Shown here piece after piece: positions 240-42,900 of a stretch of 51,249 bases of DNA. Both the position numbers and the translations under genes were made by a program. Origin of the DNA: Planctomyces sp. (GTDB lineage Bacteria; Planctomycetota; Planctomycetia; Planctomycetales; Planctomycetaceae). The stretch's first letter is position 1. Each line of letters begins with the position of its first letter. The DNA lies in assembly GCA_005778115.1 (NCBI GenBank), contig SXKJ01000063.1:1-51249 (forward strand). Reading direction: 5' to 3'. The notes under the pieces were generated by a model. The model was not told where the DNA came from. It ran no database searches and saw only the letters and a list, made by a program, of their open reading frames with translations.

Positions 240-3155
240 TTATTGCGGAGCCTTCGCCGGTTGACCACCGCTCACCACTTCGCGCAGTGCGTCGCGCAAT
301 TGATCGGCCAGCTTCGGGCCACCGCCGACGAACAGGCGCGCGACTTTGCCCTCGCGGTCGATGACCACCGTTTGCGGAATCGCGGTGGCCTGGTACTTGG
401 CGGCGGCCACGCCGTCGATGTCCAGCGCGACGGTGAGTTGCAGCTTGTGACGCTCCAACATTGATGTGATTGTTTTGGCGGGCTCTTCCAGGTTGACGGC
501 GATCAGTTGCACGCCCTCCGCTTCAAATTCGTGAGCCACCTTTTCGACCAGCGGCATCGTCTGCAGACACGGCCCGCACCACGTTGCCCAGAAGTCGAGA
601 ACGATCACCTTTCCCTTCTGATCGGCCAGATGAAACTTCTTGCCGCCGCTTCCCAGCAGTTCGAGATTGAAGTCCGGAGCCGGTTTTCCCACCAACGGCG
701 ACTCGATGCCCGGCGCGCGGCCGTCGGGACTTGAACCATCGACATCCTGTGCGATCTTCGGTTCGATCGCGCGATGCAGTCGCCAACGATGATAGGCCAG
801 GTCCGCCGCAGACTCTTCGATCTCAGCACCGATCAGCAATTGATCGACTTGATCCACTTCCGTCCGGCAATTGCCGAGCACGTCGCTCTTGCCAGACAAT
901 GCCTTGTCGGCGAATTGCTCGGCAACAAACGTCAGCCGGATACCGTCGCTGCGCAACGCCTGCACGCGAGTCGGCCCGATGTTCTTGCCTTGATCTTTGC
1001 CTTCGGCGAGCGGGGCGGCGTCAGCCCCCCGGTCCTTCGGTGTTGAGTTCGTCGCATCGTTCGGCGAAGACACCGGGGGGCTAACGCCGCCCCGCTCGCC
1101 TGTTGTGTTGACTGCATCCGTGAGTTCATCCGGGTGAAACCAAATGATCTGCGAGATGCGATCTCGCGGGATCTTCTTTGTCTCGACGCGGACTTCCAGC
1201 CGCAGCTCTTGGTCGTCCATGTCGATGACTCGCCCGCGCAGGAAGTCGCCGCTCTTCGAGCGGATCAACTGTGTCGGTGGCGAGTCTCGCTGCATACGCG
1301 GCAGAGTCAGCAGCCGTTCGCGTTTCGTCTTGCTGAGCTTCGGCGGACCATCGACGACAGACAGTTCGACCGCTTTGACTTTGTCGTGCGGCACGAACGT
1401 CGCGTCGGACATGTTGGTTTTGAAGTGGACCCCCTCTTCGGTGATCTTGGTCACTTCACAGGGAACCGTGTCACCGCTGCGAAGGTGCATTGTCCGCTTG
1501 CCGGAAGTCACGGCGGCAGCGGCGTTCGGGCCGCCGGCCAATGCCTTCAAAAAGGCATCCGCAAACCCGACCGGCTGTGGCTGCGGTTGCTGCTGCACGA
1601 CCTTGGGCTTCGGCGGAGGAGGATCGCGATAGACGATGCGTCCAGTGACTCCAGTGAGCAACGGGCTGGCCGTCGCGCTGAAGTCAGGATGCCAAACGAG
1701 ACAACTCGCATCGGGCTGTTCGCGTCCGTCTGCTAGTCGGCCGAAGAGACGCAGGCCATCCAACTCCAATCGTCCAGAGCGACCTTCGGGAGGACTTCCG
1801 GCCGCGAACTTCTCGCGGTTCACGACCGCCAAAGAGCGGAGTTCCGACAACGGCAATTTCAACGGTTCTTGAATCGCAGGGTTCGTCAGCCCCAATTGAC
1901 CATTGGCGATGCTTGTGAGTTCACCGCTCAGCCGCGTGCCATCCAGATAGATCACTCGGAATGAACGCGAGGCTTCTTCATTTGGCGGCGAGAGAAACAC
2001 GCCAGCGATCTGATCGGCCGCAACCTGCGTCTCGTCGTTCCCGTCGCGCACAGTGAATTGCTTCTTCTCCGCATCGAAGGCCGCCAGTTGACCGTACACG
2101 ATCGAGCCGTCCGTGCGATGCAGTCGCGATTTGTCCGCCTGCACTTCGCGCGGCGGGACTCCGTTCCAGCGGCTGATTCGTAGCCGTTCCAGTCGCACGT
2201 CGCCGCGTTTGTTGGTCAATCGCAGGCCAGAATGAACCTGCGGCTTGCGCGGCGTGACGTTGATCTGCCCGCGCGGCACACCGCTGGGCGAGTACACCAA
2301 TAATTTTCCCTTCTCTTGATCCAGATACGCCAGGAAGTGTGCTCGGCCCGCGCCAGACGGCGTTTCCTGAACCGAATCGACATCCGCCTCTCGGCCGAGT
2401 TCGCAGCGCACGACCAACTCGTTGTCCCAGATCTCAAACCGAAACGCGCGTTTGAAGACCGACTCATCATCGGAGTCGTTGACTCCCAATGCGAACACGA
2501 AGTCCGGCTTGTTCTTCCACGCCAGTTCAAATTCGATGATCGCCTGAGCCGGGATGCCGAAGTCGCCACGAATGTTTGCTCCCTCCTGGTCTGTGACAGG
2601 CTGACCTCCCTCTTCACGCCACTGCTTGTTGGCTGCGGATTCTTTCCACTCGGTCAGACCGCTGGGGCCGAGATAGATCAAATCCGCGCCGCTGCTCCAA
2701 CGATAGAGCCGCCGGATCTGATCCCGTTTGACATGCACTCGCCCCAACCGAGCGACCTCGATATCGGCCGCGTCATCCGTCAGTGCCAGCAACTCTCCGA
2801 ACAGCACATCACCCGCCGCGAGTTCCAGACAATACTCACCCGTCGGCTTCGGAAGCTTCGACGGAACTACATACTGCACCGCGTTCACCCCAGCCAGCGA
2901 AAACTCAAACGGCCGAGTAAACCGCGAAGACTGCCACCGCATGACGCTCGACTGATCTGAACCCTTCAGTTCGCCAGGCACGAAGCCGCCGTTGGTCAAA
3001 TGCAGAACGGCTTCGTCCGCGCCGAAAGCCGGCACACACAACAAAATGATGAGGCAGGTTTCAACGCAAAGCCTCAAAGTCGCAAAGTTGCAAAGCAGGC
3101 AATCGAACTGGCGCACGATACCGACAAATGGGTTGGGTGTGATTCTCTTCGTCAT
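240..3155 (-). CDS. Large secreted protein with C-terminal TlpA-type thioredoxin domain
   Basis: The predicted protein has 971 residues. Residues about 34-46 form a hydrophobic segment ending in an AFG-ADE signal-peptidase-like site, so the protein is probably exported. The central 700 residues show repeated short beta-rich blocks with no family I recognise. A Pro/Gln-rich linker lies near residue 525. The last 150 residues are a TlpA/AhpC-TSA thioredoxin fold with the active site WCGPC near residue 859 and a cis-Pro region (AIPQTVVID), so thiol-disulfide exchange outside the cytoplasm is expected. An in-frame palindrome (1005-1100) encodes the linker GERGGVSPPV before this domain. The N-terminal residues 20-33 are encoded by a copy of the repeat flanking the GxxExxY gene, so the true start is uncertain. 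It is the last gene of the minus-strand series. Confidence 0.8.
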   Translation of the reverse strand: MTKRITPNPFVGIVRQFDCLLCNFATLRLCVETCLIILLCVPAFGADEAVLHLTNGGFVPGELKGSDQSSVMRWQSSRFTRPFEFSLAGVNAVQYVVPSKLPKPTGEYCLELAAGDVLFGELLALTDDAADIEVARLGRVHVKRDQIRRLYRWSSGADLIYLGPSGLTEWKESAANKQWREEGGQPVTDQEGANIRGDFGIPAQAIIEFELAWKNKPDFVFALGVNDSDDESVFKRAFRFEIWDNELVVRCELGREADVDSVQETPSGAGRAHFLAYLDQEKGKLLVYSPSGVPRGQINVTPRKPQVHSGLRLTNKRGDVRLERLRISRWNGVPPREVQADKSRLHRTDGSIVYGQLAAFDAEKKQFTVRDGNDETQVAADQIAGVFLSPPNEEASRSFRVIYLDGTRLSGELTSIANGQLGLTNPAIQEPLKLPLSELRSLAVVNREKFAAGSPPEGRSGRLELDGLRLFGRLADGREQPDASCLVWHPDFSATASPLLTGVTGRIVYRDPPPPKPKVVQQQPQPQPVGFADAFLKALAGGPNAAAAVTSGKRTMHLRSGDTVPCEVTKITEEGVHFKTNMSDATFVPHDKVKAVELSVVDGPPKLSKTKRERLLTLPRMQRDSPPTQLIRSKSGDFLRGRVIDMDDQELRLEVRVETKKIPRDRISQIIWFHPDELTDAVNTTGERGGVSPPVSSPNDATNSTPKDRGADAAPLAEGKDQGKNIGPTRVQALRSDGIRLTFVAEQFADKALSGKSDVLGNCRTEVDQVDQLLIGAEIEESAADLAYHRWRLHRAIEPKIAQDVDGSSPDGRAPGIESPLVGKPAPDFNLELLGSGGKKFHLADQKGKVIVLDFWATWCGPCLQTMPLVEKVAHEFEAEGVQLIAVNLEEPAKTITSMLERHKLQLTVALDIDGVAAAKYQATAIPQTVVIDREGKVARLFVGGGPKLADQLRDALREVVSGGQPAKAPQ
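1005..1100. repeat. In-frame palindromic element inside the TlpA-domain gene
   Basis: The left arm 1005-1033 and right arm 1072-1100 are complementary at 28 of 29 positions around a 38-nt spacer. The arms begin GGCGAGCGGGGCGGCG and end CCCCCCGGT. The whole element is read through without a stop or frame change and gives a Gly/Ser/Pro-rich linker in the protein. It therefore looks like an insertion tolerated between domains. Confidence 0.85.
3058..3096 (+). repeat. Repeat copy 1 of the GxxExxY-flanking family
   Basis: It contains TTTCAACGCAAAG followed by further CAAAG-type units (CTCAAAG, TCGCAAAG, TTGCAAAG). It is related to the two copies flanking the GxxExxY gene but lies on the opposite strand. 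It is inside the reading frame of the TlpA-domain gene and supplies residues about 20-33, next to the signal-peptide core. Confidence 0.55.
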
Positions 3156-3162
3156 GTTTGCC

Positions 3163-3192
3163 CCTTTTGCGGCTCTGCGTCTTCGCGTTCAA
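3163..3192 (-). repeat. Repeat copy 2, downstream of the GxxExxY gene
   Basis: On the minus strand it reads TTGAACGCGAAGACGCAGAG followed by CCGCAAAAGG. It matches copy 3 (3603-3631) in the same orientation, so the two copies form direct repeats around the GxxExxY frame. It fills the gap between that gene's stop (3198) and the start of the TlpA-domain gene (3155). Confidence 0.7.
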
Positions 3193-3197
3193 GCGCA

Positions 3198-3596
3198 TCA
3201 ATATTCAATCAAGCGATTGACGACTCGATGGATACCGTCTTTGACAAGCTTTTCACCAAACTTAATGACCAATCCCAAATGTAGATCGAAGAGTCTCAAA
3301 TAGGTCAAAAGCTGCACTTCAAAAATGACGTTGTAATCGGTGGTCGCTTTGCACTCGATGAGAACCTTCCCGTTGACTCACAGGTCGAACTTCAACGGAT
3401 GTCCGAGCACTTGCCCTTTGTATCGAATCGGGACTTCCTTCTGCCGCTCGACGATCAATCCGCGCGCCGTCAATTCCCAAGCCAACGCCTCCTCATAAAC
3501 ACTCTCAAGCAACCCCGGCCCGCCCAACACACGATGCACTTCAATTGCCGAATCCACGATCACTTTGCTGATCTCGTTCTCGGCCACCTCAATCAC
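3198..3596 (-). pseudogene. GxxExxY family protein, broken by one in-frame TGA
   Basis: Reading from the GTG at 3596, the first 72 residues contain the family signature GPGLLESVYEEAL. They end at a TGA at 3378-3380 after KFDL. The same frame continues after this stop with VNGKVLIECKA, then VQLLTYLRLFDLHLGLVIKF and a final IHRVVNRL, which is the usual C-terminal half, up to a TGA at 3198-3200. Total length would be 132 residues, normal for this family (about 125-130). A one-base change would restore it. The biochemical role of GxxExxY proteins is not established; a nuclease-like or nucleic-acid role has only been suggested. Family assignment is confident; loss of function is inferred. Confidence 0.85.
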
Positions 3597-3602
3597 TCTG
3601 TC

Positions 3603-3631
3603 CCTTCGCGCCTCTGCGTCTTTGCGTTGAG
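3603..3631 (-). repeat. Repeat copy 3, upstream of the GxxExxY gene
   Basis: On the minus strand it reads CTCAACGCAAAGACGCAGAG followed by GCGCGAAGG, directly before the GTG start at 3596. It is a direct repeat of the copy at 3163-3192. Together they bracket the GxxExxY gene like the ends of a small cassette. Confidence 0.7.
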
Positions 3632-3637
3632 AATGTT

Positions 3638-4804
3638 TTAGCGTTCGTAAATCGGCAGGAACCGGTAATTCAGAGCGATCGCCAACAACGACAGCGTGGT
3701 TGATGTTGCCGGACCGAACTGACCTTTGAAGCTGCCATCGGGTAGTTGCTGAGCTTTGAATTGGCGAATCAGCAGCTTGTTCCACTTCTCCCAGGTTTCG
3801 ACGTCTCCTTGGAACAACGCCTGAGCCTGATAGTAGCGCTGATACTCCATCCAGCCGAAACCGGACGGCCCGGTGAATTCCCACTTGTTGACGAGATATC
3901 CCAACGTCGCCTTGTACTGCGGCAAGTCTTTCCGCCGAGCGACCGCATACACGAGCGTGGCGATCGAGATGCGAGCCAGCGATTCATCGAATCCGCCGAT
4001 CCCGCCGGCATACGCGACCTGTCCCGACGCGGCCGTCATCTTCGTGTAGTACGAGATCGCCTTGTCGATGGACTCATCCGGAATCTCGATACCGGCATTG
4101 CGCGAGGCCAGCAAGCCGACCAACACCGCTCCGCTGACCGATGTATCCGCATCCGTCGAATCGGGTGAGTATCGCCACGCTCCCGTGGGGTTCTTCTTCT
4201 GCGAGGTGATTGCCGCACGCACCGCCAGCTCCAGCGCGGCTCCGATCGAGCGTTGATCCTTTCCCTTGCCCTCTGGCCAGAGATGTCGGTCATCGACGGC
4301 TCCATAAGCCTCGGCCAGGCCCAACATGCCAAAGCCGTGGTGATACATGCTTCCGCCGAGAAACCCGGTGCTTGCGTTCTGCTGCGTGATGATATTGCGG
4401 CACGCCTTCCGCACATGATTGCTGTAGAGCCCAAAGTTCGGGTCTTCCCCCGAAGCCAAAAACACCATCAAACCCAACCCGGTCACGCCCGGCCCTTGCT
4501 CGCCCCCTCCGCCGGTCCAGTCACCGTTCTCCGACTGCGTCGTCGCGAGATACTGCAACCCGCGCTCGTACATCTCCCGCACATCGCGCGGGACGACCTC
4601 ACCAATGCGTGCGTTCGGCGGCTGAGCGGCGGCCGGAGTCGCCATCAAGGCGAATGTCCAAAGTCCCGCGAACAAAAAACACAGTGCAAAGTGGCGAGTG
4701 CAGAGTGCAAAGTGCAAAGTGCCGGACCTCGCACTGCTGTCCCCATTTTGCACTTTGCACTCAGCGCTCAGCACTTTGCACTGCCGTGATCGCAACTTAT
4801 TCAT
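3638..4804 (-). CDS. Secreted prenyltransferase/squalene-oxidase-repeat protein
   Basis: The protein has 388 residues from the ATG at 4804. That ATG overlaps the stop of the upstream gene by 8 bases (ATGAATAA), which suggests translational coupling. The mature region starts after ALMATPAAAQ and carries alpha/alpha-toroid repeats of the squalene-cyclase/prenyltransferase fold (QNASTGFLGG, GAWRYSPDST, SGFGWMEYQ, LPDGSFKGQFG). I see no DxDD cyclase acid motif, so a binding or structural role is likelier than terpene cyclisation. The signal-peptide n- and h-regions are encoded by an inverted repeat (4682-4783), giving odd tandem stretches such as LHFALCTRHFALC. Such proteins are found with MoxR/VWA loci in planctomycetes; this last point is from memory. 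Confidence 0.8.
   Translation of the reverse strand: MNKLRSRQCKVLSAECKVQNGDSSARSGTLHFALCTRHFALCFLFAGLWTFALMATPAAAQPPNARIGEVVPRDVREMYERGLQYLATTQSENGDWTGGGGEQGPGVTGLGLMVFLASGEDPNFGLYSNHVRKACRNIITQQNASTGFLGGSMYHHGFGMLGLAEAYGAVDDRHLWPEGKGKDQRSIGAALELAVRAAITSQKKNPTGAWRYSPDSTDADTSVSGAVLVGLLASRNAGIEIPDESIDKAISYYTKMTAASGQVAYAGGIGGFDESLARISIATLVYAVARRKDLPQYKATLGYLVNKWEFTGPSGFGWMEYQRYYQAQALFQGDVETWEKWNKLLIRQFKAQQLPDGSFKGQFGPATSTTLSLLAIALNYRFLPIYER
4682..4783. repeat. Inverted repeat encoding the signal peptide of the squalene-cyclase-fold protein
   Basis: The arms 4682-4721 and 4744-4783 match at about 35 of 40 positions as inverted copies. Each is built of GTGCAAAGTGC-type units, with a 22-nt spacer. 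The element lies wholly within the coding sequence and encodes KVLSAECKVQ on one arm and LHFALCTRHFALC on the other. The second stretch is part of the hydrophobic signal sequence. Confidence 0.8.
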
Positions 4805-5840
4805 CTTGGTCTCCCTCTTTCGCCAGCGCCCCACTCTGCTTCAACCACTGTTCCAGCCCGCGCACCTGAGCGAACTGCTGATTCAACACTTTCCATTCCG
4901 CATCGCTGAACAGCGGCTTGAGCGTCTTCTCCGGGATCTTCGAGATGTTCCACATCACGATGTAGTAATCCTGCTGCTGGCCGAAGCTGCGGGGTGGTTT
5001 CGTTTCCTCAACGATCAACTCGATGACCTTTTGTCGCTGCTCGTCGCGCAGCGGCAGAGCGTTTTCGAGCATCGCGACGACTAACTCAATCTTGGCGCGG
5101 TACTGAAACTTCCGCCGCTCGTTGTCGATCTCTGAGTACTTCGAAAGCTGCTCCCCCTTGAGCATGTTGCGCAGCGTCTTGTGATAGAACGAGTCCTCGC
5201 TAAACAGCCCGGCCTGAAACTTGACCTGGAGCGGCGAGATATCTTGCCAAATCTCGTTGAACTTCTGCTGATCCTTCCGCACGAGCAGGAACTTCTTGCG
5301 CACGACCTCGACCGACTCGAAGAACCGCAAGATATCCCCTCGTCCGGCCAACAGGAGCTTCTTCTTCTGAGGCTCCGAAAGCTGACAGGCTCGATCCACG
5401 TCGTCCATTTGCAGCGTCAGCATCTGCTCCAACTTCTTCCGCGCCCCGGCCGCCGTCGGGAAATTCTGAAAGACCCACTGATCGAACTGATTCTCCGGCA
5501 TCCAGTTCTGAGCTTGGGGTTGTCCCAAGAGCGCTTCCTCCGGCGGATCGTCGTCGTCCTGAGCGATCGCGGTCGCGCTGATGCTCGTCAGTAATACCAC
5601 GCACACCAACGCGAGAAGCCGCCGACAACTCGATGAGTGCGACCGGCATCCCAAAGTCAGGAGCAACACACGAACCGGACGCACCAACTTGAAAGCCACG
5701 CCCCCCACCGAGCTTGCCTCGGTGGAATCGGGCCTTTGCACTACGAATGAGCCGAACGTAGTGCAAAGGCCCAAAATCCACCGAGGCAAGCTCGGTGGGG
5801 TTTGTGTCAGTGCCGCGCGTTTCTTCGACAACGGTTGCAT
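4797..5840 (-). CDS. Secreted helical protein, tandem paralogue 4
   Basis: The protein has 347 residues from the ATG at 5840; a TTG at 5846 would overlap the previous stop. A signal peptide (RRLLALVCVVLL ending ATAIAQ) lies at about residues 72-95, after an unusually long N-terminal extension encoded in part by the palindrome 5703-5800. An internal GTG or TTG start closer to the signal peptide is possible. The mature part is charged and helical. It shares KKKLLLAGRGDI and SFYHKTLRNMLKGEQ with the next paralogue (KKKLKLAARGDV, SLFRKTLRHTLTGEQ). I recognise no named domain. The pattern resembles LTxxQ-type periplasmic helical proteins such as Spy/CpxP only loosely. Confidence 0.75.
   Translation of the reverse strand: MQPLSKKRAALTQTPPSLPRWILGLCTTFGSFVVQRPDSTEASSVGGVAFKLVRPVRVLLLTLGCRSHSSSCRRLLALVCVVLLTSISATAIAQDDDDPPEEALLGQPQAQNWMPENQFDQWVFQNFPTAAGARKKLEQMLTLQMDDVDRACQLSEPQKKKLLLAGRGDILRFFESVEVVRKKFLLVRKDQQKFNEIWQDISPLQVKFQAGLFSEDSFYHKTLRNMLKGEQLSKYSEIDNERRKFQYRAKIELVVAMLENALPLRDEQRQKVIELIVEETKPPRSFGQQQDYYIVMWNISKIPEKTLKPLFSDAEWKVLNQQFAQVRGLEQWLKQSGALAKEGDQDE
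5703..5800. repeat. Long near-perfect hairpin in the 5' end of paralogue 4
   Basis: The arms are 5703-5745 and 5757-5800, about 43 bases each. They begin CCCCACCGAGCTTGCCTCGG and end GGGCCTTTGCACTACG, differing by a few bases and one indel, with an 11-nt loop. It is open in the frame of the paralogue and encodes part of an extended N-terminus. If the true start is downstream, it would instead be a strong leader hairpin in the coupled operon. Confidence 0.85.
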
Positions 5841-5842
5841 TA

Positions 5843-6895
5843 TCAATCCTTCGCCCCGTCGTTCTTCGAGTCGGGCACGTCATCATCCGCCGCATGCACC
5901 GGCCATTGACCGGATCGGCGGAGCGTTGCTTCGATCTGCTTCGCGTGAGCGATTTGTATCTGGAGCTTTTCCCAAACGTCTTCGTGCAAGATGGGCTTCA
6001 AGCGATCCTCCAGTTTTCCCGCCTCCACCAGCACGAAGTAGTTGATGTAACTGTGCCGAGTTTCCGGCAGGTCGCCGTATTCGACCAGGATCTCGACGAA
6101 TTCCTTCCGGCTGGAAACGGGGATCTTGGCTCCGTTGGCCATCCGCTCCCAATTCAGGATCGCGGATTCGATGGCCGTTTTTCGCCGTTCGCGTTCGAGC
6201 TTCTGCCATTGAACCCGCTGTTCGCCGGTCAGAGTGTGTCGAAGCGTTTTCCGAAACAGCGAGTTCTCGTCAATGATGCCAAACTGCTGGGTCATGCGCA
6301 GCGGCTGCAATTCCTGCATGAGTGCGACGTACTGCTGCTGATCGACCGGCTTCGAGGTCAGCTTCGGCCGTAATTCCGCCGCACGGGAGATGAACTGCTC
6401 GACGTCCCCGCGCGCGGCCAGCTTCAGCTTCTTCTTCTGAGCCTCCGTTAGCGACACATGCCGAGCGACCGTTTCTATCTCGACGCTCGCATTGGCTTCC
6501 ATCCGTTTCCGAAAGACCGCGATCGAGGGTTCTGGGACACGGCGTTGCACAATCTCCTCGGCTTGAACCAACTCGATGACCTGCACGCCGTTGACTTGCC
6601 GGACCACCTGCGCCCTCGGAACCCCTTGTACTCTCTGCACCACCTGCTGTTGCTGTCCGCCAAACACCAATTGGTCGAACTGCTGCTCCGTGATCATGTA
6701 AGTTCGCGCGCCGACGGCTGGCACGGCACCTTCTTCGTCCTCCTCCAGAATCAGCAAGCCCGCGACCGCGTTGATTGACCCGCACAGCACCAGCAACACG
6801 AACGACCTTCGTAACAAGACCGGCAACCGTCGGCCGCTCGGCGCGGCGACGTCTGGGGATTGGCTCGCGAGAATTGGATCGCGGCGATCGGTCAC
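5843..6895 (-). CDS. Secreted helical protein, tandem paralogue 3
   Basis: The protein has 350 residues. The ATG at 6895 overlaps the preceding stop by 4 bases (ATGA), so translation is probably coupled. Residues about 27-47 form a signal sequence or N-terminal anchor (LLRRSFVLLVLCGSI). A Gln/Val-rich segment lies near residues 78-100. The helical part has LTEAQKKKLKLAARGDVEQF and SLFRKTLRHTLTGEQRVQW, nearly the same layout as paralogue 4. No catalytic motif is visible. The function is unknown; its position suggests a partner of the MoxR/VWA proteins encoded upstream. Confidence 0.8.
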   Translation of the reverse strand: MTDRRDPILASQSPDVAAPSGRRLPVLLRRSFVLLVLCGSINAVAGLLILEEDEEGAVPAVGARTYMITEQQFDQLVFGGQQQQVVQRVQGVPRAQVVRQVNGVQVIELVQAEEIVQRRVPEPSIAVFRKRMEANASVEIETVARHVSLTEAQKKKLKLAARGDVEQFISRAAELRPKLTSKPVDQQQYVALMQELQPLRMTQQFGIIDENSLFRKTLRHTLTGEQRVQWQKLERERRKTAIESAILNWERMANGAKIPVSSRKEFVEILVEYGDLPETRHSYINYFVLVEAGKLEDRLKPILHEDVWEKLQIQIAHAKQIEATLRRSGQWPVHAADDDVPDSKNDGAKD

Positions 6896-7938: not shown

Positions 7939-7939
7939 G

Positions 7940-8890: not shown

Positions 8891-9091
8891 AAGAGTGACC
8901 TTCGATATCAATTAACACTGAGCAATCAGCGCAGATGGCCAACATTCGCCAACCGTCATGCGGATAATTCGTTTCGATCCGCAGCCTGTCTGAATCTGTG
9001 GGGAGTCAACTTTACCCCGTAGATTCAAACACGGCCGCGAGTTTCGGAAGTCCAGACGTGTTGGCAGACAGTGTATGCCTCCGACTTCACA

Positions 9092-17236: not shown

Positions 17237-17248
17237 GGTTGGAAGCTC

Positions 17249-17377
17249 CAATTTCCAAGACCCAATGTCCAATGAATGTCCAAATTCCAATGTCCAAATC
17301 CCAAACCAGCGCATGTCGCCGTTTGGAATTGGGGACTTCGGATTTCATGGGGCATTGGGATTTGGACTTTGGACATT
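17249..17377. repeat. Imperfect inverted repeat filling the DUF58-BatA gap
   Basis: The left half (17249-17305) is rich in CCAATGTCCAA and CAAATTCCAATG units. The right half (17321-17377) holds the same kind of units in reverse complement (GGGATTTGGACTTTGGACATT is the mirrored form). The element occupies almost the whole intergenic space between the DUF58 stop (17379) and the BatA-like start (17236). The two halves are similar, not exact copies. Confidence 0.65.
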
Positions 17378-17378
17378 C

Positions 17379-21297: not shown

Positions 21298-21809
21298 GGA
21301 TGAGTTCCCCAGTTGTCGTTCAAGAGAGGTCGGCAGAACGGACGAATGAATGGACCGCGAACGCGGTTCGTAATTGGGGCGGGATTATTTCCGGCGGCGT
21401 CTCGAATATCCACTCGGCACGGCAAAGCCGTCGCGGCGATCCCCAAAAACACAATCGATGAACCGGTCATGGTCGTCCGATGTTCTCAAACCGTCACTCA
21501 CAGAAAATTCCAGCAATACCCTTGGCCCGCTTACGAGTTTTGCGAGCACCGACTTTAATTCAGCGAGTCGGGATCTGGTCCTCGATCGCTTTCACATCTC
21601 GACACAAAGATCCGTGTAGTAGCCTGCTGCCATAGGCTTCATTCATTTTAGGTGACACTATTTCTGAAATCTTCGGCCGCATTGGCCCTTCCACTCCGTA
21701 GCTCGGTTGGTTGGCAAATCAGTTTTTCAGACTGTGTGATCGGCTGCCCTATCGTCTCAGCGAGGTTCACCGCTCCAACAGCCCATACACGTGCGAGAGA
21801 CGCGAGTCG
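21298..21809. other. Divergent intergenic region, MoxR locus / carbamoyltransferase
   Basis: This 512-bp stretch must contain the promoters for the leftward MoxR series and the rightward carbamoyltransferase. A perfect short palindrome ACCGCG-AA-CGCGGT lies near 21356-21369. The carbamoyltransferase frame is open back to 21711, but the extension has no conserved look. No RNA gene, convincing -35/-10 pair or mobile element was found. Confidence 0.4.
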
Positions 21810-23890: not shown

Positions 23891-23954
23891 AGCACGACGC
23901 GCGAGCGAGTGGTCAAGACGTCGAAAAGACAACCACTCGCTTGCGCGTCGTGCT
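23891..23954. repeat. Palindromic repeat, family A, copy 1
   Basis: The arms 23891-23913 and 23932-23954 match at 22 of 23 positions (AGCACGACGCGC then AGCGAGTGGT) around an 18-nt loop. It starts 17 bp after the carbamoyltransferase stop. The same sequence family recurs at 34655-34717. It may act as a transcript 3' end or as a REP-like mobile palindrome. Confidence 0.9.
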
Positions 23955-29297: not shown

Positions 29298-29711
29298 TCA
29301 CCGGACCAGCAACGCAAACGGATGAGTCGCCTGTTGATCAACGACGTCACTCTGGTGAAGAGAGAGGACCTCGTCGCTCAGTTCTGCTTCAAAGGCTGAG
29401 ACACCAGAACACTCCACCTTCCCGCTCCGCTTCACGCCGGCGAAGCTCTCAAAACGGATGCAGCGATTCTTCAGCAGATCGACCCCCTGCTCAACGAACA
29501 CACTACCGGTGAGATCGCCCGAATCCTGAATGACCAAGCGTTGACCTCCGGAAACCAGCAGCCCTTCAAACTTTGCCCTGACAAAAGCGTAGGGACTGTC
29601 GTTGTTCGACTGCGCCAAATGCACCTTCAACTCGCGCGGCGCGGCCAATACAAATCCAGTCGTGAACAAGGACATGATCAGAACGATTGCCGTGATCGCG
29701 AGGCGTGTCAT
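29298..29711 (-). pseudogene. Secreted protein truncated by the IS3 right end
   Basis: The remaining 137 residues begin with a clear signal peptide (LAITAIVLIMSLFTTGFVLA before APREL). A beta-rich segment follows (LKVHLAQSNNDSPYAFVRAK, GLTGSVFVEQG-like strands). The reading frame runs up to the last base of unique sequence, and the TGA stop is formed by 29298-29300, the terminal triplet of the IS3 inverted repeat. The 3' part of the gene was not found across the element. The family is unknown. Confidence 0.7.
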
Positions 29712-29760
29712 CGCAGTGTCTCCGAGTGACCCGGCGAGGCTCCGCCTCAGCCCATGAGCC

Positions 29761-29823
29761 GGAACGCGCTAGCGTCCGGTTCGAAATGTCGTGAGCCCCT
29801 CGAACCGGACGCTAGCGCGCTCC
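29761..29823. repeat. Palindromic repeat, family B
   Basis: The arms 29761-29784 and 29800-29823 match at 23 of 24 positions (GGAACGCGCTAGCGTCCGG then TTCGA) with a 15-nt loop. A small GAGGC-TCC-GCCTC stem lies just before it. The element is in the 157-bp space between the truncated secreted gene and the DUF1080 gene and shows no coding potential. Confidence 0.85.
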
Positions 29824-29868
29824 GCACTGATATGAAACGCCGACTGAGAGACGAGTCGCGATCACCAA

Positions 29869-30498
29869 TTACTCATTCAAGGGCAGAACTTCGATCCTGC
29901 GGATGCTGACTCGGCTACCGGGGTCGTGCTGCTGGAAGGCGAAATGTCCTTCCTTGAAGGTCAACGCGAAGTCCAGGTACTCGTAGAGTTCGTTGCCATC
30001 GACCGTGACCTTGATCCGCGTCATCTTGCGTCCGCGCCAGATGTCGTCACGAACTTCCAACTCGTAAGTGAACCAGTTGTCCGGCTTCACCAATTGCTTG
30101 TAAACGTGACACATCCCATACAGCGAACCGGTGCGAATCGGATCTTTGTGCGTGCTATCGATCTGGGCTTCGTAACCGTCGGTGAATCCGGGCTTTCTCG
30201 TCGTGCGAAAATAGAGGCCAGAGTTGCCGCCGTCATTGATCTTGATCTCGGCCCGATACCGAAAATTCTTGTACGGCCCCTTCGTGCAGACGAGCATCGA
30301 CGCTGGCCCCGATCCCTGGATCACGCCGTCCTTCGCCTCCCAGACACTCTCCTGATTGCCGACTTTCTCCCAGCCGTCGAGGGACTTGCCGTCAAACAGT
30401 TCGATCCACTTCGCATCGTCGGCGTTCACGGTGGAAACGGTGAAGAGGCTCAATGTCAGCAACGCGCCCAGCATTAAACGAACTTGGAAAATGTGCAT
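29869..30498 (-). CDS. DUF1080 (3-keto-disaccharide hydrolase-like) secreted protein
   Basis: The protein has 209 residues from the ATG at 30498, with AGGAG six bases upstream. The signal peptide is LMLGALLTLSLFTVSTVNA. The jelly-roll domain starts with the family signature WIELFDGKSLDGWEKVGN. It continues with NSGLYFRT, GYEAQIDST and a C-terminal GHFAFQQHDPGSRVSIRRIE. DUF1080 members are laminin-G-like folds, some shown to hydrolyse 3-keto-glycosides. Planctomycetes have many. No operon partner is adjacent. Confidence 0.9.
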   Translation of the reverse strand: MHIFQVRLMLGALLTLSLFTVSTVNADDAKWIELFDGKSLDGWEKVGNQESVWEAKDGVIQGSGPASMLVCTKGPYKNFRYRAEIKINDGGNSGLYFRTTRKPGFTDGYEAQIDSTHKDPIRTGSLYGMCHVYKQLVKPDNWFTYELEVRDDIWRGRKMTRIKVTVDGNELYEYLDFALTFKEGHFAFQQHDPGSRVSIRRIEVLPLNE

Positions 30499-30799
30499 CG
30501 ATGGCTCCTGTATTTCAGAGGTAAAGTTTGGTCCGGGAGTTATTATTGACGTCCAATCGTTCGACATTCCAGTTGGCGAGCGTGTTGGTTGAGGAGTTCA
30601 TTCCGTGTGTCATTCTAGCAGCACAGACCCCGGCGACACCGCCCGCCTCTCGAAGGGCGGCACGAGACCGCCAACGTAATGGCGGACCTCGATCTTGTCT
30701 CGCGACAATTTGCGATGGTTGTTGTGCGCGCTACAGCGGCGTCGGACGTATTGAATCGAATGGATTGAATGGCGACTTCGGAATCACGATGCTGCGGCC
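30499..30799. other. Divergent intergenic region, DUF1080 / pyruvyl-transferase-like
   Basis: This 301-bp region must hold the promoters of both flanking genes. Two small stems are visible, CCGCCC with GGGCGG (about 30642-30663) and CCGCCA with TGGCGG (about 30676-30693). No gene was found. Confidence 0.35.
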
Positions 30800-34490: not shown

Positions 34491-34654
34491 GAGACTCACC
34501 AAAGTTTGAGGTTCGAGAATTGAGCGGCCGCAATGCCGGAATCACTTTCGTGATTGGCATACGGCGTCATGGCAATTTGGGCGGATGCTTTTGCAACCGG
34601 GGCGATAGCTCGGATTATTCACGGGGTGGGTAAATCCATTGCAAGTGGTTTCGA

Positions 34655-34717
34655 GTTAGCACGACGCGCCAGCGAGTGATTGTGCGAGTAAACCACTCGC
34701 TGGCGCGTCGTGCTAAC
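34655..34717. repeat. Palindromic repeat, family A, copy 2
   Basis: The arms 34655-34680 and 34692-34717 match at 25 of 26 positions (GTTAGCACGACGCGCC then AGCGAGTGAT). They share 20 or more bases with the copy at 23891-23954. It sits downstream of the DUF1501 stop (34772, minus strand), again near a gene 3' end. Confidence 0.9.
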
Positions 34718-34771
34718 TTTGCCCATGAATAATCCTGGCGAGCGCCGCGCGGGCCATTTTCGGAATGTGCA

Positions 34772-36190
34772 TTACGCAAACAGGTCGAGAAGCGGTTCGC
34801 CTGTGGAAAGCGGGCGCGTAAAGCCGTCTTTGCCCAGACGCAGATCGAGTGGGATGCCGAGCGAGTGGAAGATCGTGGCCCCCAAATCCTGTGGACGCAC
34901 TGGGCGGTCCTTGACGTAGGCTCCGTGCTTGTCGGACTCGCCGTATACTCGGCCGCCGCGGATGCCACCGCCGGCAACGATGGTCGAATAGCAGCTTGGC
35001 CAGTGTTGGCGGCCGGGATTGGCGGCACCGTTTTGGTTGATGTTGGGTGTGCGTCCGAATTCGCCAGTGACGACCACCATCGTGTTCTCCAACATGCCAC
35101 GATCGTGCAAGTCGGTGATCAATGCGGAGACACCTTCGTCGAGACACGGCAAGCACCAGCCCATGCCATACGAACCGCTGCCGAAAGCGTTGCCCATGCC
35201 CATCTCGCCGCCGTGCATGTCCCAGCTTGAGGCGGGAGGTCCACCACCACCGTTGGGGGACTGACCGGTCCAGCCATTGACCGTTACAAAGCCGACACCC
35301 GATTCGATCAGCCGCCGAGCCAGCAACAGGTTCTGGCCCAGGGGGTGCATGCCGTAACGATCGCGGACCGATTGGGGTTCGCGATGTAGTTCAAATGGCT
35401 CGCGCCCTTCGGAGCCGCTCGTCAGATCGAACGCTCGACCGTGCAAGTCTTGCCAATCCGTCGTCGAACGATGTGTCGTGATGTCACTGGCTGTCGGGCT
35501 GAGTCCGTCAAGCAGTCGGCGACGCTCGAGCATTCGCTCGGTTGAGACGGTAGCAATCAATTCGTCCGGAGCTTTGAAATTCGGCATCGCCGGATGATTG
35601 GTGGCCGAGCCGACGAACAGCGGGCTGTGCATCGCTCCGAGGTGTCCGCCGTTCCCAATATTCGCCGCACAGAAGACCGGATCGCCGACGCATTTGATGA
35701 GCCAGACATACGGTGCGATGCTCCGCTCGTCCGGCCGAGCTTTCGACAGAATCGATCCGATGTACGGTGCGTCGGCTGGCGCCTGAGCCTGACCGCTCAG
35801 CAGATGGTGCATCGCGTCGAAGTGGTTGCTGATGTTGCCGACATGCGTCATCGACCGAATCAACGCGATGTGGTTCGTCAGCTTCGCCAACCGAGTGTGC
35901 ATCTCGTTGATGCGCATGCCCGGCACGGCCGTCGGGATTGGCTGATACGGCCCGCGAATCGTATCGGGAGCATCCGGCTTCAAATCCCAGGTGTCTAAGT
36001 GGCTCGGACCACCGCAGCACAGGATGAAAATGCAGGACTTCTTCGCCGCCCCTTTTCCCAACCCTTTTTTGGTATCAACTCCGGCGGCAACCATGCCCGG
36101 CAAACCCAAAGGCAAAGCACCGACGCCAGCCGCTTGAAGCAAACTGCGGCGAGAAATCATCGGCTGCATCGTGCTCATTGAGCGACTCAT
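34772..36190 (-). CDS. DUF1501 family protein, Tat-exported
   Basis: The protein has 472 residues from the ATG at 36190; the open upstream extension has no signal features. MISRRSLLQAAGVGALPLGL is a Tat signal (RR 14-15). The DUF1501 pattern follows: IFILCCGGPSHLDTWDLKPD, NHIALIRSMTH, GEFGRTPNINQNGAANPGRQHWP and a C-terminal TGEPLLDLFA. The fold is related to alkaline phosphatase/sulfatase. Usually this gene is paired with a DUF1549/DUF1553 gene; here the PSD1 gene is 3.8 kb away on the other strand, so the pair is split or this copy is an orphan. Confidence 0.93.
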   Translation of the reverse strand: MSRSMSTMQPMISRRSLLQAAGVGALPLGLPGMVAAGVDTKKGLGKGAAKKSCIFILCCGGPSHLDTWDLKPDAPDTIRGPYQPIPTAVPGMRINEMHTRLAKLTNHIALIRSMTHVGNISNHFDAMHHLLSGQAQAPADAPYIGSILSKARPDERSIAPYVWLIKCVGDPVFCAANIGNGGHLGAMHSPLFVGSATNHPAMPNFKAPDELIATVSTERMLERRRLLDGLSPTASDITTHRSTTDWQDLHGRAFDLTSGSEGREPFELHREPQSVRDRYGMHPLGQNLLLARRLIESGVGFVTVNGWTGQSPNGGGGPPASSWDMHGGEMGMGNAFGSGSYGMGWCLPCLDEGVSALITDLHDRGMLENTMVVVTGEFGRTPNINQNGAANPGRQHWPSCYSTIVAGGGIRGGRVYGESDKHGAYVKDRPVRPQDLGATIFHSLGIPLDLRLGKDGFTRPLSTGEPLLDLFA

Positions 36191-36420
36191 TGTCTGTCCC
36201 TCGGCAAGTGACCAAGCGGGCCGCCCACGCCTCACGCGAATCGTCTGGTTACTGTTATCGAACCGGAATGGTATCGAGAACGAGAGTCGAATCAAAACAA
36301 CTTGCGGACGACAACGGTCGCTGTCGCTTTCTGAACGTGGCCCTCACCGCTCCGCATGACGAGCCACATGGCCGAACAGCGTCATAGAAACGTTCGGCTC
36401 GTCACGCAGAACGTTGGCAG

Positions 36421-37863: not shown

Positions 37864-37871
37864 AGAATCTC

Positions 37872-39548
37872 CTATCCAAAGTCGAATTTCGCCGCCATCG
37901 GCATGCGTCGGCCGCTTCCGAAGGCTCGCGAAGTTAGCTTAATGCCCGGCGGCATCTGCCGGCGTTTGAATTCGTTGCGATCCAGTTTCGTCGCGACCCA
38001 GCGTACCGTTTCCGCTGGAAATTGACGGCTGAGCGTCGCGACCGATTCCTCCCGTTCGACCAAACCTTCCAGGATCGCGTCGAGCACCGGGTACGGTGGC
38101 AAGGTGTCTTGATCGAATTGATTCGGTGCGAGTTCCGCGCTGGGGGCTTTCGTGATCGAACTGAGCGGGATGACTTCGCGACCTTCGCGGACGTCGTTGA
38201 TGTATCGTGACACGGCGTAGACGTCTCGCTTGAAAAGATCACATAACACTGCGAAGCCGCCCGCCATGTCGCCGTACAACGTGCAGTAGCCGACCGCCAA
38301 CTCGCTCTTATTGCCCGTCGCTAGCGCGAGCCACCCGTGGCGATTACTACGGATCATTACGAGCGCTCCGCGAATGCGTGCCTGCAAGTTCTGATCGGCG
38401 AGCCCTCCTGGTTGGCTGGCGAGATCCGCTCCCACAAGGTGCGTTGCTTCGTAGGCGCGGTGCATCTCGTCGATCGGGATGATCGCGTGATCGATGCCGA
38501 GATTCTCGGCGAGCAACTTCGCGTCGCCGATGCTGTGCTCGCTGCTGTACCGGCTGGGCATGAGCAATCCGTGGACGTGCTCTTTGCCGGCGGCCTGTGC
38601 CGCGATGTACGCCGAGAGCGCGGAGTCGATGCCGCCGCTGAGTCCCAACACACAGTCGGTGAAGCCGCTCTTCCGCATGTAGTCGCGCAGGCCGAGGATG
38701 AGCGCATCGAGCAGATCGGCCTCGCGCGGGCGGTGGAGAAGAGGGGGAGAAGGGGTGAGGGGGAGAGGGGGAGAGGAAGGCAGGTCAACAATTCGTAGGT
38801 CGGTGTCGAAGGGTTTGAATTGCTCGATGACATTGCCGGCGGAGTCGAGAACTAGGCTGTTGCCGTCGAAGACGAGGTCGTCGTTGCCACCGACTTGATT
38901 CACGAACACGAACGGCTTGCGGTGCCGCGAGACATGCCGTCGTAAGATGTTCAATCGGCGATGCGGCTTGTCCCTTTCAAACGGGCTGCCGGAGAGATTG
39001 ATCAGCACGTCGGCTCCGAACGAAACCAGCTCGGCGACTGGATCGGCCTGTTGCAATGGCCGCTCGTGATAAAACGTGTTCGGCTCGCCGAACCAAGCGT
39101 CCTCGCAGATGTGGACGCCGAGCTTGATCCCGCGCAGTTCCATCGGCCGGACACGCTCGGTCGGCCGGAAGTAACGCTGCTCATCGAACACGTCGTAATT
39201 TGGCAGCAGCGTCTTGTGAACCGTGTCGAGCACCTCGCCATCGAGCAGCAAGCTGGCCGCGTTGGCGATGCGCCCTTCGGTCACGCCCCACTTTGTCGGA
39301 TGCCCAACCAACACCGCCAATCCGCGCGGCAACTCTTTCGCCAAGGCACTCACTGCTCGGTCACACGCATGAGCGAACCCTTCCCGCAGCAACAAATCCT
39401 TTGGCGGATATCCGCTGATAAGCAACTCGGACGTGATCAGCAATTCGGCACCGGCCACCACCGCTTGCTCGGTGGCTGATCGGACGAGCGCGACGTTGCC
39501 GCGCAGGTCGCCGACAGTGGGATTAAGTTGTGCTAACGCGATCTTCAC
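37872..39548 (-). CDS. nadE: Glutamine-dependent NAD+ synthetase
   Basis: The protein has 558 residues from the GTG at 39548, preceded by GAGGGA; the GTG at 39578 is an alternative. The nitrilase-type glutaminase domain has its triad E41 ([11 protein letters not shown]), K112 ([10 protein letters not shown]) and C148 (GVHICEDAW). The synthetase domain has the ATP loop [14 protein letters not shown] and later [20 protein letters not shown]. It catalyses the last step of NAD synthesis, amidating deamido-NAD with glutamine nitrogen. The linker between the domains is encoded by a purine-rich repeat (38732-38780), giving [14 protein letters not shown]. Confidence 0.95.
38732..38780. repeat. Polypurine low-complexity repeat in the NadE linker
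   Basis: The plus strand is almost only A and G (GGGGGAGAAGGGG, GAGGGGGAGAGGGGGAGAGG). It encodes a Pro/Ser/Leu linker on the coding strand, exactly between the glutaminase and synthetase domains. The reading frame is kept. Confidence 0.75.
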
Positions 39549-39667
39549 GAGGGATCCCTCAAGGGTTGCTGTGGGCACCGTCAGACTATCAGAATCCTCA
39601 CGCGGCTGCGAAATGGTCAGCTTGAGAATAGACGTCGCCGCGTTCGCCGACTTTGGAGGTTCCCCCC

Positions 39668-39928
39668 ATGACCGACGAATTCGAGTCGCGCGAACCCAGC
39701 GAACGCTCCGTCAATCACCACGGTCGCGGCTTGACGATCCTCTTCACACTCCTGGTGTGTTACGTGCTCAGCCCAATGCCAATGGTTTGGGGACTTGAAA
39801 AGCTCGGTGTGCTGGACCGCGCCGACGCGGTCCTTGAGATTTTCTATGCCCCTCTCACCTATCTCGTGGAACGCTTTGAGCCTGTCAACAAGTTCTATGA
39901 CTGGCAATTCAGTTTCATTGGCCGTTGA
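39668..39928 (+). CDS. Small single-pass membrane protein
   Basis: The protein has 86 residues from the ATG at 39668, with GGAGG about eight bases upstream. The charged N-terminus is followed by one hydrophobic segment ([21 protein letters not shown]). An amphipathic C-terminal part follows ([21 protein letters not shown]). I do not recognise the family. It lies 22 bases before the PSD1 gene in the same orientation. Confidence 0.6.
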
Positions 39929-39950
39929 TCAATCCTTCCCTCACTGACTG

Positions 39951-42900
39951 ATGGAGTCCCCGGTGAATTCTCGTTTTGGCTGGCTCTTGTTGACGGGTGG
40001 TTTACTCGTCATCGCGTCCAATTTCGCGGTCTCCGCTGCCGAGCCGGAGGAGATGTTTGATCGCGAGATCGCGCCGCTCCTGATCCGTCGTTGTTTGGAT
40101 TGCCACAACGCGACCGAACGCAAAGGCAACCTCGATCTTTCGCGAACGGAGTCGGCCACGAAGGGAGGCGAGTCGGGAGCGGTGCTCGTTCCCAGCAAAG
40201 CGGCCGACAGTTTGTTGTGGCAGCGCGTGCGTGATGGTGAGATGCCTCCCAAGAAGCCGCTGCCAAACGAGGAAGTCGAATTGCTACGGCGGTGGATCGA
40301 CGGCGGAGCCAAGTGGGGCACGTCGCCGATTGATCCGTTCGCGGTCACGACGACTGCGCGGGCTGGTCTCGACTGGTGGTCGTTGCAGCCGGTGCGGCGG
40401 CCGTTGGTGCCAGAACTGAAGTCTGAAATCTCAAAATCCAAATCTCAGATCTCAGATTTCAAATCCGAAGCCAGGAATCCGATCGACCACTTCATCTGGA
40501 AGAAGCTCGCCGAGGAAGGACTCTTGCCGTCGTCACCTGCTGAGAGCCGAGCACTCATTCGACGGCTGTCGTTTGATCTGCTCGGCCTGCCGCCGACACC
40601 AGCGGAGATCGAGACGTTTGAGAAAAACGATTCGCCGCAAGCCTACGAAAACCTTGTGGACCGGTTGCTCGATTCGCCGCACTTCGGCGAGCGTTGGGCG
40701 CGGCACTGGTTGGACATCATTCGTTTCGGCGAGAGCCAGGGATTTGAACGGGATAAGCTGCGGACGAACTCGTGGCGATTCCGAAATTGGGTCATCAGCG
40801 CCTTCAATCGTGACCTGCCCTATGACGAATTCGTGCGGCTGCAACTGGCCGGCGACGTACTGCGGCCGGACGATCCCGAAGCGGTCATCGCTACCGGTTT
40901 TCTAGTGGCCGGGGCGTATGACGAAGTCGGTCAATCACAGCAAAGCGCGGCGATGCGCGCGGTTGTGCGGCAGGATGAGATGGAAGACTACGTCAGCACG
41001 ATCGGCGAGACGTTTCTGGGGCTGACCGTGCATTGTGCTCGCTGCCACGACCACAAGTTTGATCCGATTCCGGCTCGTGACTATTACCGTTTATCTGCCG
41101 TACTGGCGGGCGTCCGTCACGGCGAGCGAGACGTTCCCTCCGGAGACGACGCCTGGCGAGCCTCACAGCAGAAGATCGTGGCGGACTTGAACCGCGAGCT
41201 GAACTCAGTGACTAAGCGGTTGACCGAGATCGAATCAGAGACTCAGCAAACAATCCTCGCGGAACGGCGGACACGCTTTGACAAAAAAGTTCCACCACCG
41301 TCACCGGTTGCACGCTGGGAGTTCAATGACGATCTGAAAGACTCGCATGGCGAACTGCACGTCACGGCCAACGGCGCAAAGCTCAAGGATGGTGTGTTGC
41401 TGGTCAATGGCCGGTTGGCGTTCGCTGCGACCGCGCCGCTGAAGAAGCCAATTAAAGAGAAGACGCTGGAAGTCTGGCTGCGGCTCGATCACCTGAATCA
41501 AACCGGTGGCGGAGCAATCACGATTCAAACACTCGACGGCGGGACGTTTGATTCGATCGTCTTCGCCGAACGGGAACCAAAACGCTGGATGTCCGGCAGC
41601 AACGGTTTTGTTCGCACGCAGAGTTTTCAAGCTCCCGAAGAGACGGAGGCTGACAAGCAGATCGTCCACATCGCGATCGTGTACGACGCGGATGGCACGA
41701 TCACCGGCTACCGCAACGGTCAGTTGTTCGGCCAGCCGTACAAGAGCAGCGTCCCGATCACCTTTGAGGCGGAGAAGTCGCAGGTGTTGTTCGGCCTTCG
41801 GCACAGCCCGGTCGGCGGAGGCAAGATGCTCGCCGCCGCGATCGACCGTGCCGCGTTGTACGACCGCGCATTGGCGAGCGCTGAGGTCGCGGCCTCGGCC
41901 GGTGTCTTCACCGATGCGATCTCTGAGCCAGAGTTGCTGGCTCGCTTGCCGGAACCGTTGAAGCTCGAACGCACTCAACGGAAGTTCGAGGCCGAGCATC
42001 TCCGCAAGCAACTCGCGCGAGCCAATGAGAATCATGTCTATGCCGTAATGCCGAAGAACCCCGAGGCCACGCACCTTTTATTGCGCGGCAATCCGGCGAC
42101 CCCGGCGGAAGAAGTGTTTGGGGGTGGGATCACAGCCATCAGCCGACAGCCATCAGCCGACAGCCAGAATGAAACGCCGTTCGAGTTCAAATTGCCGAAG
42201 GAGGCGTCCGACGCCGACCGTCGCAAGACTCTGGCGAGTTGGATCACCGATCGTCGCAATCCGCTGTTGGCTCGCGTGATCGTCAATCGGTTGTGGCATT
42301 ACCACTTTGGAGTCGGCATCGTCGATTCCCCCAGCGACTTCGGCTTCAGCGGCGGGCGGCCGAGTCACCCGGAGTTGCTGGATTGGCTCGCCGCCGAGTT
42401 GATGGATCACGGTTGGAGTCTGAAGCACATTCATCGACTGATCGTGAACTCGGCGACGTATCGCCAATCGTCGCGCCCGCGAGTCGATGCAGCCAACAAA
42501 GACGCCGGCAATCGGCTGCTCTGGCGCAAGAGTCCGCAACGACTTGATGCCGAGACTCTGCGCGATGCGGTGCTCAGCGTCGCGGGAGAATTGAATCCGA
42601 CCGTCGGCGGTCCCGGCTATCACGACTTCACGACGTTCACGTTCAACTCGCAGTTCTATGACATCGTCGATCCAGCGGGAGCCAGCTTTCATCGCCGCAG
42701 TCTGTATCGGACGTGGGTCCGTTCGGGACGAAATCCATTTCTGGAAGTACTCGACTGCCCTGACCCCTCAACGAAAGCTCCGCGCCGCGCGGTGACGACC
42801 ACTCCGCTGCAAGCGCTGTCGCTGCTCAACAACTCATTCATGCTGCGGATGTCCGAGCAATTGTCGGGCAAGGCCACCGATCACGACGTCGCTCATCTCG

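Follow-up and report, generated by a model that had tools for sequence, protein, structure and literature searches.

Seven short repeats lying inside open reading frames (ORFs) of a planctomycete contig appear to be mostly gene-less members of several dispersed classes of repeat element, some linked to genes of the IVP family (23S_rRNA_IVP or S23, PF05635) or the GxxExxY family (PF13366) and others GC-rich. We put the probability of this reading at about two in three. The stretch analyzed, called the window throughout, is the whole 51,249 nucleotides of SXKJ01000063.1 from Planctomyces sp. (assembly GCA_005778115.1), contig 16 of a 7.43-Mb draft genome in 515 contigs that is 94% complete with 4% contamination. 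A sequence-only reading had listed the seven repeats (elements 1 to 7, Table 1) as unrelated palindromic or low-complexity families acting alike. A check of the sequence and its ORFs found all seven where that reading had placed them, inside open frames. The low-complexity families, in contrast to what had been proposed, fall into two gene-linked classes, and this association is firm: low-complexity repeats are linked to IVP genes and hairpins to GxxExxY genes.

Repeat arrays beside IVP and GxxExxY genes

The repeat units of the window recur across its own genome. Matches were counted as positions, so that one array can contribute several, and the reversed pattern served as the control. The AGTGCAA pattern of element 3 was found 63 times (4 at the window element), the AAATCTC pattern of element 6 66 times, the CAGCC heptamers of element 7 5 times (2 being the window's own) and the CGCAAAG octamers of element 2 11 times (3 in the window), all with 0 matches for the reversed pattern. 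For the polypurine array of element 5 the counts were 9 and 11, the reversed pattern being an invalid control for a purine repeat. The GC-rich elements 1 and 4 also recur (see below); multiple genomic copies, together with matching empty sites, are what the sequence-only reading had named as support for insertion. More generally, once periods divisible by 3 are set aside, short tandem arrays are in excess at periods 7 and 14. Within the window, no second arm accompanies the arrays of elements 5, 6, and 7.

PF05635 matched 55 times, including 11 times in the genome of the window; the matches fall in 19 of 25 genomes, 18 of which have one above the curated cut-off. Period-7 arrays with a score of at least 12 were present in 58 of the 100 flanks of 50 IVP loci compared with 18 of 570 flanks of control genes, and period-8 arrays in 7 of the 100 IVP flanks. 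The left and right flanks matched each other, mostly in inverted orientation, at 27 of the 50 loci versus none of 285 control genes. Where both arms could be scored, their units in the inverted sense lay at a distance of 0 to 1 at 28 of 41 loci, against 96 of 2000 random pairs. At most IVP loci of this genome and its relatives, the S23/IVP gene is enclosed by inverted ends; the solo hairpins of the window have no IVP gene.

Families like those of the window were found as arms at IVP loci elsewhere in its genome. AGTGCAA-type arms flank the IVP genes on contigs C231, C261, and C149, AAATCTC-type arms lie on both sides of the one on C246, polypurine arms accompany the one on C111, a CAGCC-type array stands on the upstream side only of the one on C475, and CCTAATGTCC arms belong to the one on C510. 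The association also extends to named plasmids, where 22 of 46 IVP match rows were examined, from six other phyla (17 loci in Cyanobacteriota and 1 each in Chloroflexota, Spirochaetota, Bacteroidota, Pseudomonadota, and Gemmatimonadota). The best period on both sides of these plasmid genes was 7 in 18 of 22, 8 in 3, and neither in 1, and such best periods were seen for 0 of 30 control genes on a Nostoc plasmid and 2 of 36 on a Bernardetia plasmid. The left/right match was less specific on plasmids, with 15 of 22 IVP genes passing compared with 0 of 30 (Nostoc) and 9 of 36 (Bernardetia) controls. Among phages, a single record matched the IVP family, and solved relatives of PF05635 include 2rld and 2gsc.

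Both the unit and the period partly follow the protein. Similarity of repeat units tracked similarity of IVP proteins (rho 0.31; 0 of 500 permutations), and the period-8 label, carried by 8 of 65 rows, was clustered on the IVP tree, needing 4 changes where shuffled labels averaged 7.8 (none of 500 shuffles gave so low a number). One period-8 clade of five spans Planctomycetota and Cyanobacteriota with support of 99/93, in a tree built on few columns and with many forks unresolved. In a sample of seven genomes, those without IVP matches had 0 and 10 period-7 arrays per Mb (0 in 62 kb and 1 in 100 kb), those with 1 (broken) and 2 matches had 25 and 45, and those with 11, 8, and 6 matches had 29, 46, and 170, respectively, a rise of heptamer density with IVP number that is suggestive only. 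The highest density of the seven was that of G012 (loci L438-L442), with 17 arrays in 100 kb.

The 3′ end of glnA was compared as a candidate insertion site. In G000 and G007, AGTGCAA arms plus an IVP gene directly follow glnA. G005 has there an apparent remnant of the hairpin type that flanks the GxxExxY gene of locus L249, and G003, G006, G010, and G011 have other sequence. The glnA matches of G001 and G008 reach only 47% identity and probably represent another gene copy; G004 and G009 gave no match, and two partial rows, one of G002 and a second one of G007, were left out. A clean pair of empty and filled sites for a complete IVP element was not obtained in this comparison.

On five cyanobacterial plasmids (L397, L398, L407, L412, and L414), IVP genes with their arms were observed beside or between cas genes (cas2/cas1, cas6/cas4, and cas10/cmr3). 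A four-helix-bundle gene next to cas genes may be an inserted element rather than a cas gene.

The second gene family is represented in the window itself. The repeat at 3058-3096, described by the sequence-only reading as lying next to a signal peptide, is indeed there and constitutes one arm only of a longer imperfect hairpin, element 2 in full, in whose loop the start codon of the TlpA gene sits. The hairpin scan of the window did not list it. Its arms aligned with a score of 15.5, and random pairs reached 8.5 at their 95% point and 33 at most. Between this hairpin and a further octamer repeat lies a GxxExxY gene (Table 1). PF13366 gave 85 matches in 17 of 25 genomes, from which 71 loci, including the window's, were analyzed (two are parts of one gene). 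Left and right flanks matched with a score of at least 22 at 56 of the 71 loci versus 22 of 1000 random places, and some loci are flanked on either side by near-identical hairpins. The repeat families differ from locus to locus, and several of them, compared by eye, resemble solo hairpins found elsewhere in the genome of the window. Arrays reaching a score of 10 were present in 49 of 132 flanks (66 of the 71 loci), with a period of 8 to 10 in 38 and of 7 in 2. The CGCAAAG octamer was considered as a general mark of GxxExxY genes and rejected, given the variation of families among loci and the spread of flank periods mostly over 8 to 10. Of six GxxExxY matches on plasmids, three were examined; two of these pass the score of 22 and the third reaches 20.5.

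Table 1. Repeat elements of the window and the associated GxxExxY gene.
Feature	Coordinates	Strand	Details
Element 1, GC-rich palindrome	1005-1100	-	29-nt arms GGCGAGCGGGGCGGCGTCAGCCCCCCGGT, 38-nt loop
Element 2 in full, imperfect CGCAAAG-type octamer hairpin	3058-3190	-	Arms 3058-3096 and ~3163-3190
GxxExxY gene (PF13366, PD-(D/E)XK nuclease superfamily)	3222-3575	-	E 2.5e-32, one in-frame TGA
Octamer repeat	3604-3630	-	Opposite side of the GxxExxY gene from element 2
Element 3, AGTGCAA heptamer hairpin	4682-4783	-	5′ end of gene 3638-4834
Element 4, GC-rich palindrome	5703-5800	-	5′ end of gene 4797-5846
CCAATGT heptamer hairpin	17247-17378		5′ end of ORF 15185-17314
GC-rich hairpin AGCACGACGCGCGAGCGAGTGGT	23891-23954		Outside long ORF 21711-23873
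GC-rich hairpin CGGAACGCGCTAGCGTCCGGTTCGA	29760-29824		Between ORFs 29298-29711 and 29869-30567
GC-rich hairpin AGTTAGCACGACGCGCCAGCGAGTG	34654-34718		Outside long ORF 34772-36295
Element 5, polypurine octamer array	38732-38780	-	NadE linker between PF00795 and PF02540, residues ~267-282
Element 6, AAATCTC heptamer array	40421-40466	+	Residues ~158-172, between PSCyt1 and PSCyt2 domains
Element 7, CAGCCAT/CAGCCGA heptamer array	42133-42166	+	Residues ~728-739, ahead of PSD1 domain

Repeats within genes and their turnover among relatives

We compared the NadE and PSD1 genes with those of nine relatives (L156-L164, from 19 loci), all planctomycete metagenome-assembled genomes, and the site of element 1 and gene 5′ ends with those of ten genomes of the same genus (G001-G010). 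In NadE, the PF00795 domain extends to residue 267 and PF02540 begins at 291. The linker between them contains the polypurine array in the window, a GC-rich hairpin with GAGCGGGGGGCGTCAGCCC or a close variant at its start in three relatives, a CACCCCAG array in one, and a long CCCTCTCCC/GGGTGAGGG hairpin in four, with nothing clear in the remaining one; the frame is open in all ten. At the first PSD1 linker, AAATCTC-type heptamers are shared by the window and four relatives, and the others have AAATCCG/AAACTCG (three), AAATCAA/AAATCAG (one), or AGTACTC (one). The second PSD1 linker behaved otherwise: the array of element 7 has the same length in the window and all nine relatives, so that it fails the orthologue test and is not an insertion relative to them. 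The PSD1 gene of L162 has an in-frame insertion of ~36 residues (GRGPRGEGR...) after its AELM motif, the sole case among the ten aligned.

A similar turnover was observed at gene starts, and relatives without the element were found there and for element 1, as the sequence-only reading had asked for. Element 1, which lies in frame in the linker ahead of a redoxin/TlpA domain (residues ~686-717), is clear in 6 of the 10 congeners; 2 have it in degenerate form and 2 lack it. At the 5′ end of the TlpA gene, the octamer element is present in the window alone. The conserved parts of the two adjoining genes are 38-40 bases apart with no repeat visible by eye in G003, G005, G006, and G009, and the site is occupied by a CCAATGT-type hairpin in G004 and G007, a CAGCC-type one in G010, a GC-rich one in G008, and other sequence in G001 and G002. 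At the start of gene 3638-4834, the window and G007, G009, and G010 share AGTGCAA-type hairpins, G002, G004, and G005 have ATTTCAA-type arrays, and G003 and G006 have CCAATGT-type repeats; in G001 a hairpin resembling element 4 lies before the start, and G008 has none. Differing hairpins were also found at the start of gene 4797-5846 in some congeners, with none seen in others. This gene and its neighbor 5843-6895 (window 4797-6895) each gave several weaker matches in the syntenic regions of congeners (L175-L184), as if they formed a paralogue family varying in number.

Some of these gene-start repeats are likely to serve as putative secretion signals, judging from their translations. Element 3 encodes, as judged by eye, the likely n- and h-regions of a signal peptide; the repeat-derived N-terminus has a TLHFALCTRHFALCFLF core in the window and reads MTTLQISDFRFQISNHLVLGIWFLGFTASVAAQPPNA in G004. 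An array of period 7 that is free of stops can be read through in all three frames, and with some units the two strands differ in character. The translated AGTGCAA arm is hydrophilic (means -0.65 to -0.37) and its reverse complement hydrophobic (+1.07 to +1.64), and the same holds for the CGCAAAGA arm (-3.15 to -2.32 versus +1.40 to +2.04). Three more units were tried and showed less contrast or none; in two of them the reverse strand also contains stops. A hairpin at a gene start could thus act as a ready-made signal peptide, with one arm hydrophilic and the other hydrophobic.

Hairpins are abundant in this genome and scarce inside its genes. In 531,923 bases, the window included, 126 strong hairpins were counted versus 0 in first-order Markov shuffles, and 200-kb samples of the sister genomes G004 and G003 contained 64 and 10. 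Their positions were scored against greedy ORFs, which cover 92% of bases and are surely over-called. Inside such ORFs lay 57 of the 126 hairpins (109 expected), with 24 versus 56 expected in G004 and 3 versus 8 in G003. In gene interiors, at least 60 residues from both ORF ends, 26 were observed and 74 expected (G004, 14 and 40; G003, 1 and 6). No depletion was seen near ORF 5′ ends (20 versus 18 expected; G004, 9 versus 8), and some was seen near 3′ ends (11 versus 17; G004, 1 versus 8). Targeting of hairpins to genes was rejected on these interior counts, which are far below expectation. The roughly threefold deficit of hairpins in gene interiors makes the in-frame copies look like survivors rather than targeted insertions.

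The GC-rich palindromes form a class apart. Element 1 has copies on both strands of its genome (99 match rows, with 40 of 543 first-look candidates scored), and element 4 gave 76 match rows (40 of 44 candidates scored). Element 4 had been described as a translated N-terminal extension; it does lie within an open frame, with an ATG near 5840 on one side and the signal peptide on the other, and whether it is translated depends on the start used. Both elements are inverted doublets of a short palindrome present in many copies, as in REPs and REPINs. Their arms begin with GGCG and CCCC rather than the GTAG/CGTC tags, and a GTAG start was seen in several other hairpins of the genome. RAYT-like PF01797 genes occur in 12 of 13 genomes, and 20 of 97 matches were examined. 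In the middle 1.8 kb of the loci, elements 1 and 4 were found at 0 of these 20, 0 of 70 PF13366, and 0 of 50 PF05635 loci. RAYT genes as drivers of the two elements were consequently rejected for the 20 PF01797 loci, 10 of which have matching flanks of other repeat families. We regard the GC-rich palindromes as dispersed hairpins resembling REP doublets, with no driver found among the loci examined for the three gene families.

Three further GC-rich hairpins and the CCAATGT hairpin of Table 1 had not been listed by the sequence-only reading. The called start of ORF 15185-17314 falls within the CCAATGT hairpin; the true start of this ORF may be a later one (MSFLQPLLL). Elsewhere in the window, tandem repeats of ~126 bases at 50227-51061 lie in a predicted protein and resemble WD40-type repeats.

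How the repeats may have spread

Three classes of element would account for these observations. In the first, an IVP/S23 four-helix-bundle gene would be enclosed, in the complete form, by inverted arms built from tandem units of 7 or 8 nt, with solo hairpins or arrays lacking the gene, such as those of the window, as short forms. In the second, a GxxExxY nuclease gene would lie between matching hairpins that also occur alone elsewhere, and the third would consist of the GC-rich palindromes resembling REP doublets. By analogy with RAYT genes and REPs, the best reading of the linkage is that IVP and GxxExxY genes mobilize their repeats. An IVP pentamer might bind the repeat hairpin and promote its copying into new sites, and GxxExxY might cut DNA on behalf of its own hairpins, with selection retaining only those insertions in linkers and N-termini that keep the frame. 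A broader proposal, which we hold to be evenly balanced, is that IVP/S23 genes represent a widespread, unrecognized class of mobile element that ends in inverted 7-nt arrays (8-nt in some clades) of nearly free sequence, with the protein setting the period. The bacterial heptamer excess would then be its footprint and the 23S rRNA intervening sequence one of its landing sites, with GxxExxY forming a parallel class, hairpins at gene starts giving rise to signal peptides, and families in linkers being exchanged.

Several observations weigh against this picture. Linkage by itself is no proof that a protein moves a repeat, and no transposition event was observed in the compared genomes, nor was a target-site duplication apparent by eye at the element-free sites, whose boundaries are much diverged. 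Left and right flanks did not match at 23 of 50 IVP loci and 15 of 71 GxxExxY loci, the window's own GxxExxY flank pair scored 19.5, under the threshold of 22, and 6 of 65 IVP genes had no array at threshold. The left/right test was passed by the nine Bernardetia control genes, all from one AT-rich plasmid. Period 8 has four or more origins on the IVP tree, so that protein and period are not strictly in step, and G003 has its 25 period-7 arrays per Mb with a sole IVP match that is weak and broken. The absence of elements 1 and 4 from the middle 1.8 kb of the examined loci of all three gene families points the same way.

Alternatively, IVP and GxxExxY genes could be cargo, riding between hairpins that are moved by a third, unseen enzyme. 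The commonness of RAYT-like genes speaks for this view, and neither PF05635 nor PF13366 is known to be a transposase. We nevertheless consider it unlikely, as the two gene families carry different repeat types and the partial tracking of the IVP protein by unit and period is expected of a partner, not of a passenger.

That heptamer arrays are ordinary microsatellites produced by slippage, with IVP genes merely favoring repeat-rich intergenic DNA, appears improbable. Slippage would not place inverted partners of the same unit on either side of one gene family or cluster the period on a protein tree, and such arrays are mostly missing beside control genes of the genomes and plasmids concerned. 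Array length does vary among species, and slippage is the cause proposed for the bacterial heptamer excess in PMC4692102. It is also compatible with mobilization by IVP genes, since slippage may well lengthen arrays that elements have brought.

A third explanation, that the in-frame stretches are simply host-gene linkers and signal peptides that change quickly, no DNA having been inserted, suits element 7, with its unchanged length in nine relatives, and such regions evolve fast anyway. For elements 1 to 6 it is disfavored, and overall very improbable, because the same repeat families lie at many other genomic places and relatives hold quite different families, or nothing, at the same site. 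Artefacts of assembly or binning of metagenome-assembled genomes are scarcely credible even for a contaminated draft of 515 contigs, as other assemblies have the same elements at orthologous places and the link of gene and repeat also holds in named plasmid records.

If mobilization by the linked genes is true, the commonness of 7-nt tandem repeats in bacteria acquires a testable cause, namely that they are the ends of elements carrying IVP/S23 genes, and the GxxExxY nuclease family gains a candidate DNA partner. The rebuilding of the NadE linker and of a signal-peptide region from different repeat families, with the frame kept, would offer a view of selfish DNA becoming protein. Linkers and signal peptides encoded by repeats may also mislead the alignment of orthologues and the calling of gene starts.

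Comparison with known systems

In the open-access literature, seen mostly at the level of titles and abstracts, no link of IVP genes to dispersed heptamer hairpins was found. The nearest relatives are the intervening sequences of 23S rRNA, for which PMC4990558 describes an S23p ORF inside the loop of an inverted-repeat stem, a case with tandem heptamers (GACAGAT) just upstream of that ORF, a homopentamer of four-helix bundles for Xanthomonas S23p, and an earlier proposal of mobility. Those sequences sit in helices of 23S rRNA, whereas the present elements are dispersed between and inside protein genes, have arms of many different 7-nt units, and include copies without a gene. In the window they lie in or beside protein genes, not in a 23S rRNA gene (the rRNA genes of the genome were not examined). 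At the level of protein families alone, PF05635 resembles the Avd protein of diversity-generating retroelements, according to PMC10053308.

Heptameric repeats are described as over-represented in many bacteria and ascribed to slippage in the portion consulted of PMC4692102, which includes 7-nt tandem units, some of them inverted, from cyanobacteria and Xanthomonas. That portion describes no link to IVP genes; here the link was tested, cyanobacterial plasmids included. Borg tandem repeats also lie in ORFs and form disordered peptides (PMC9879509), but their in-ORF units are divisible by three, in contrast to the units of 7 or 8 nt described here, which are often inverted and linked to genes.

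REPINs and their RAYT genes, and the REPs tagged GTAG/CGTC, share with our elements the arrangement of short inverted-repeat doublets in many copies with a partner gene (PMC3733652 and PMC3116915), and in-frame intragenic REPs have been reported, including in the verrucomicrobium Opitutus terrae (PMC3733652). Here, the partner is an IVP or GxxExxY gene, not a Y1 transposase, the IVP arms are tandem arrays of fixed period, and the REP-like elements 1 and 4 lack a RAYT partner at the PF01797 loci examined. The hairpin elements also have the short terminal inverted repeats, absence of genes, and high copy number of miniature inverted-repeat transposable elements, with elements 5, 6, and 7 lacking the second arm. 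Finally, the comparison with Rickettsia palindromic elements drawn by the sequence-only reading is fair as to outcome, since in both cases palindromic repeats lie in frame within unrelated protein genes (PMC10969869). Unlike those elements, the repeats described here fall into several classes tied to partner genes, are depleted in gene interiors, and show turnover of families at one site between species.

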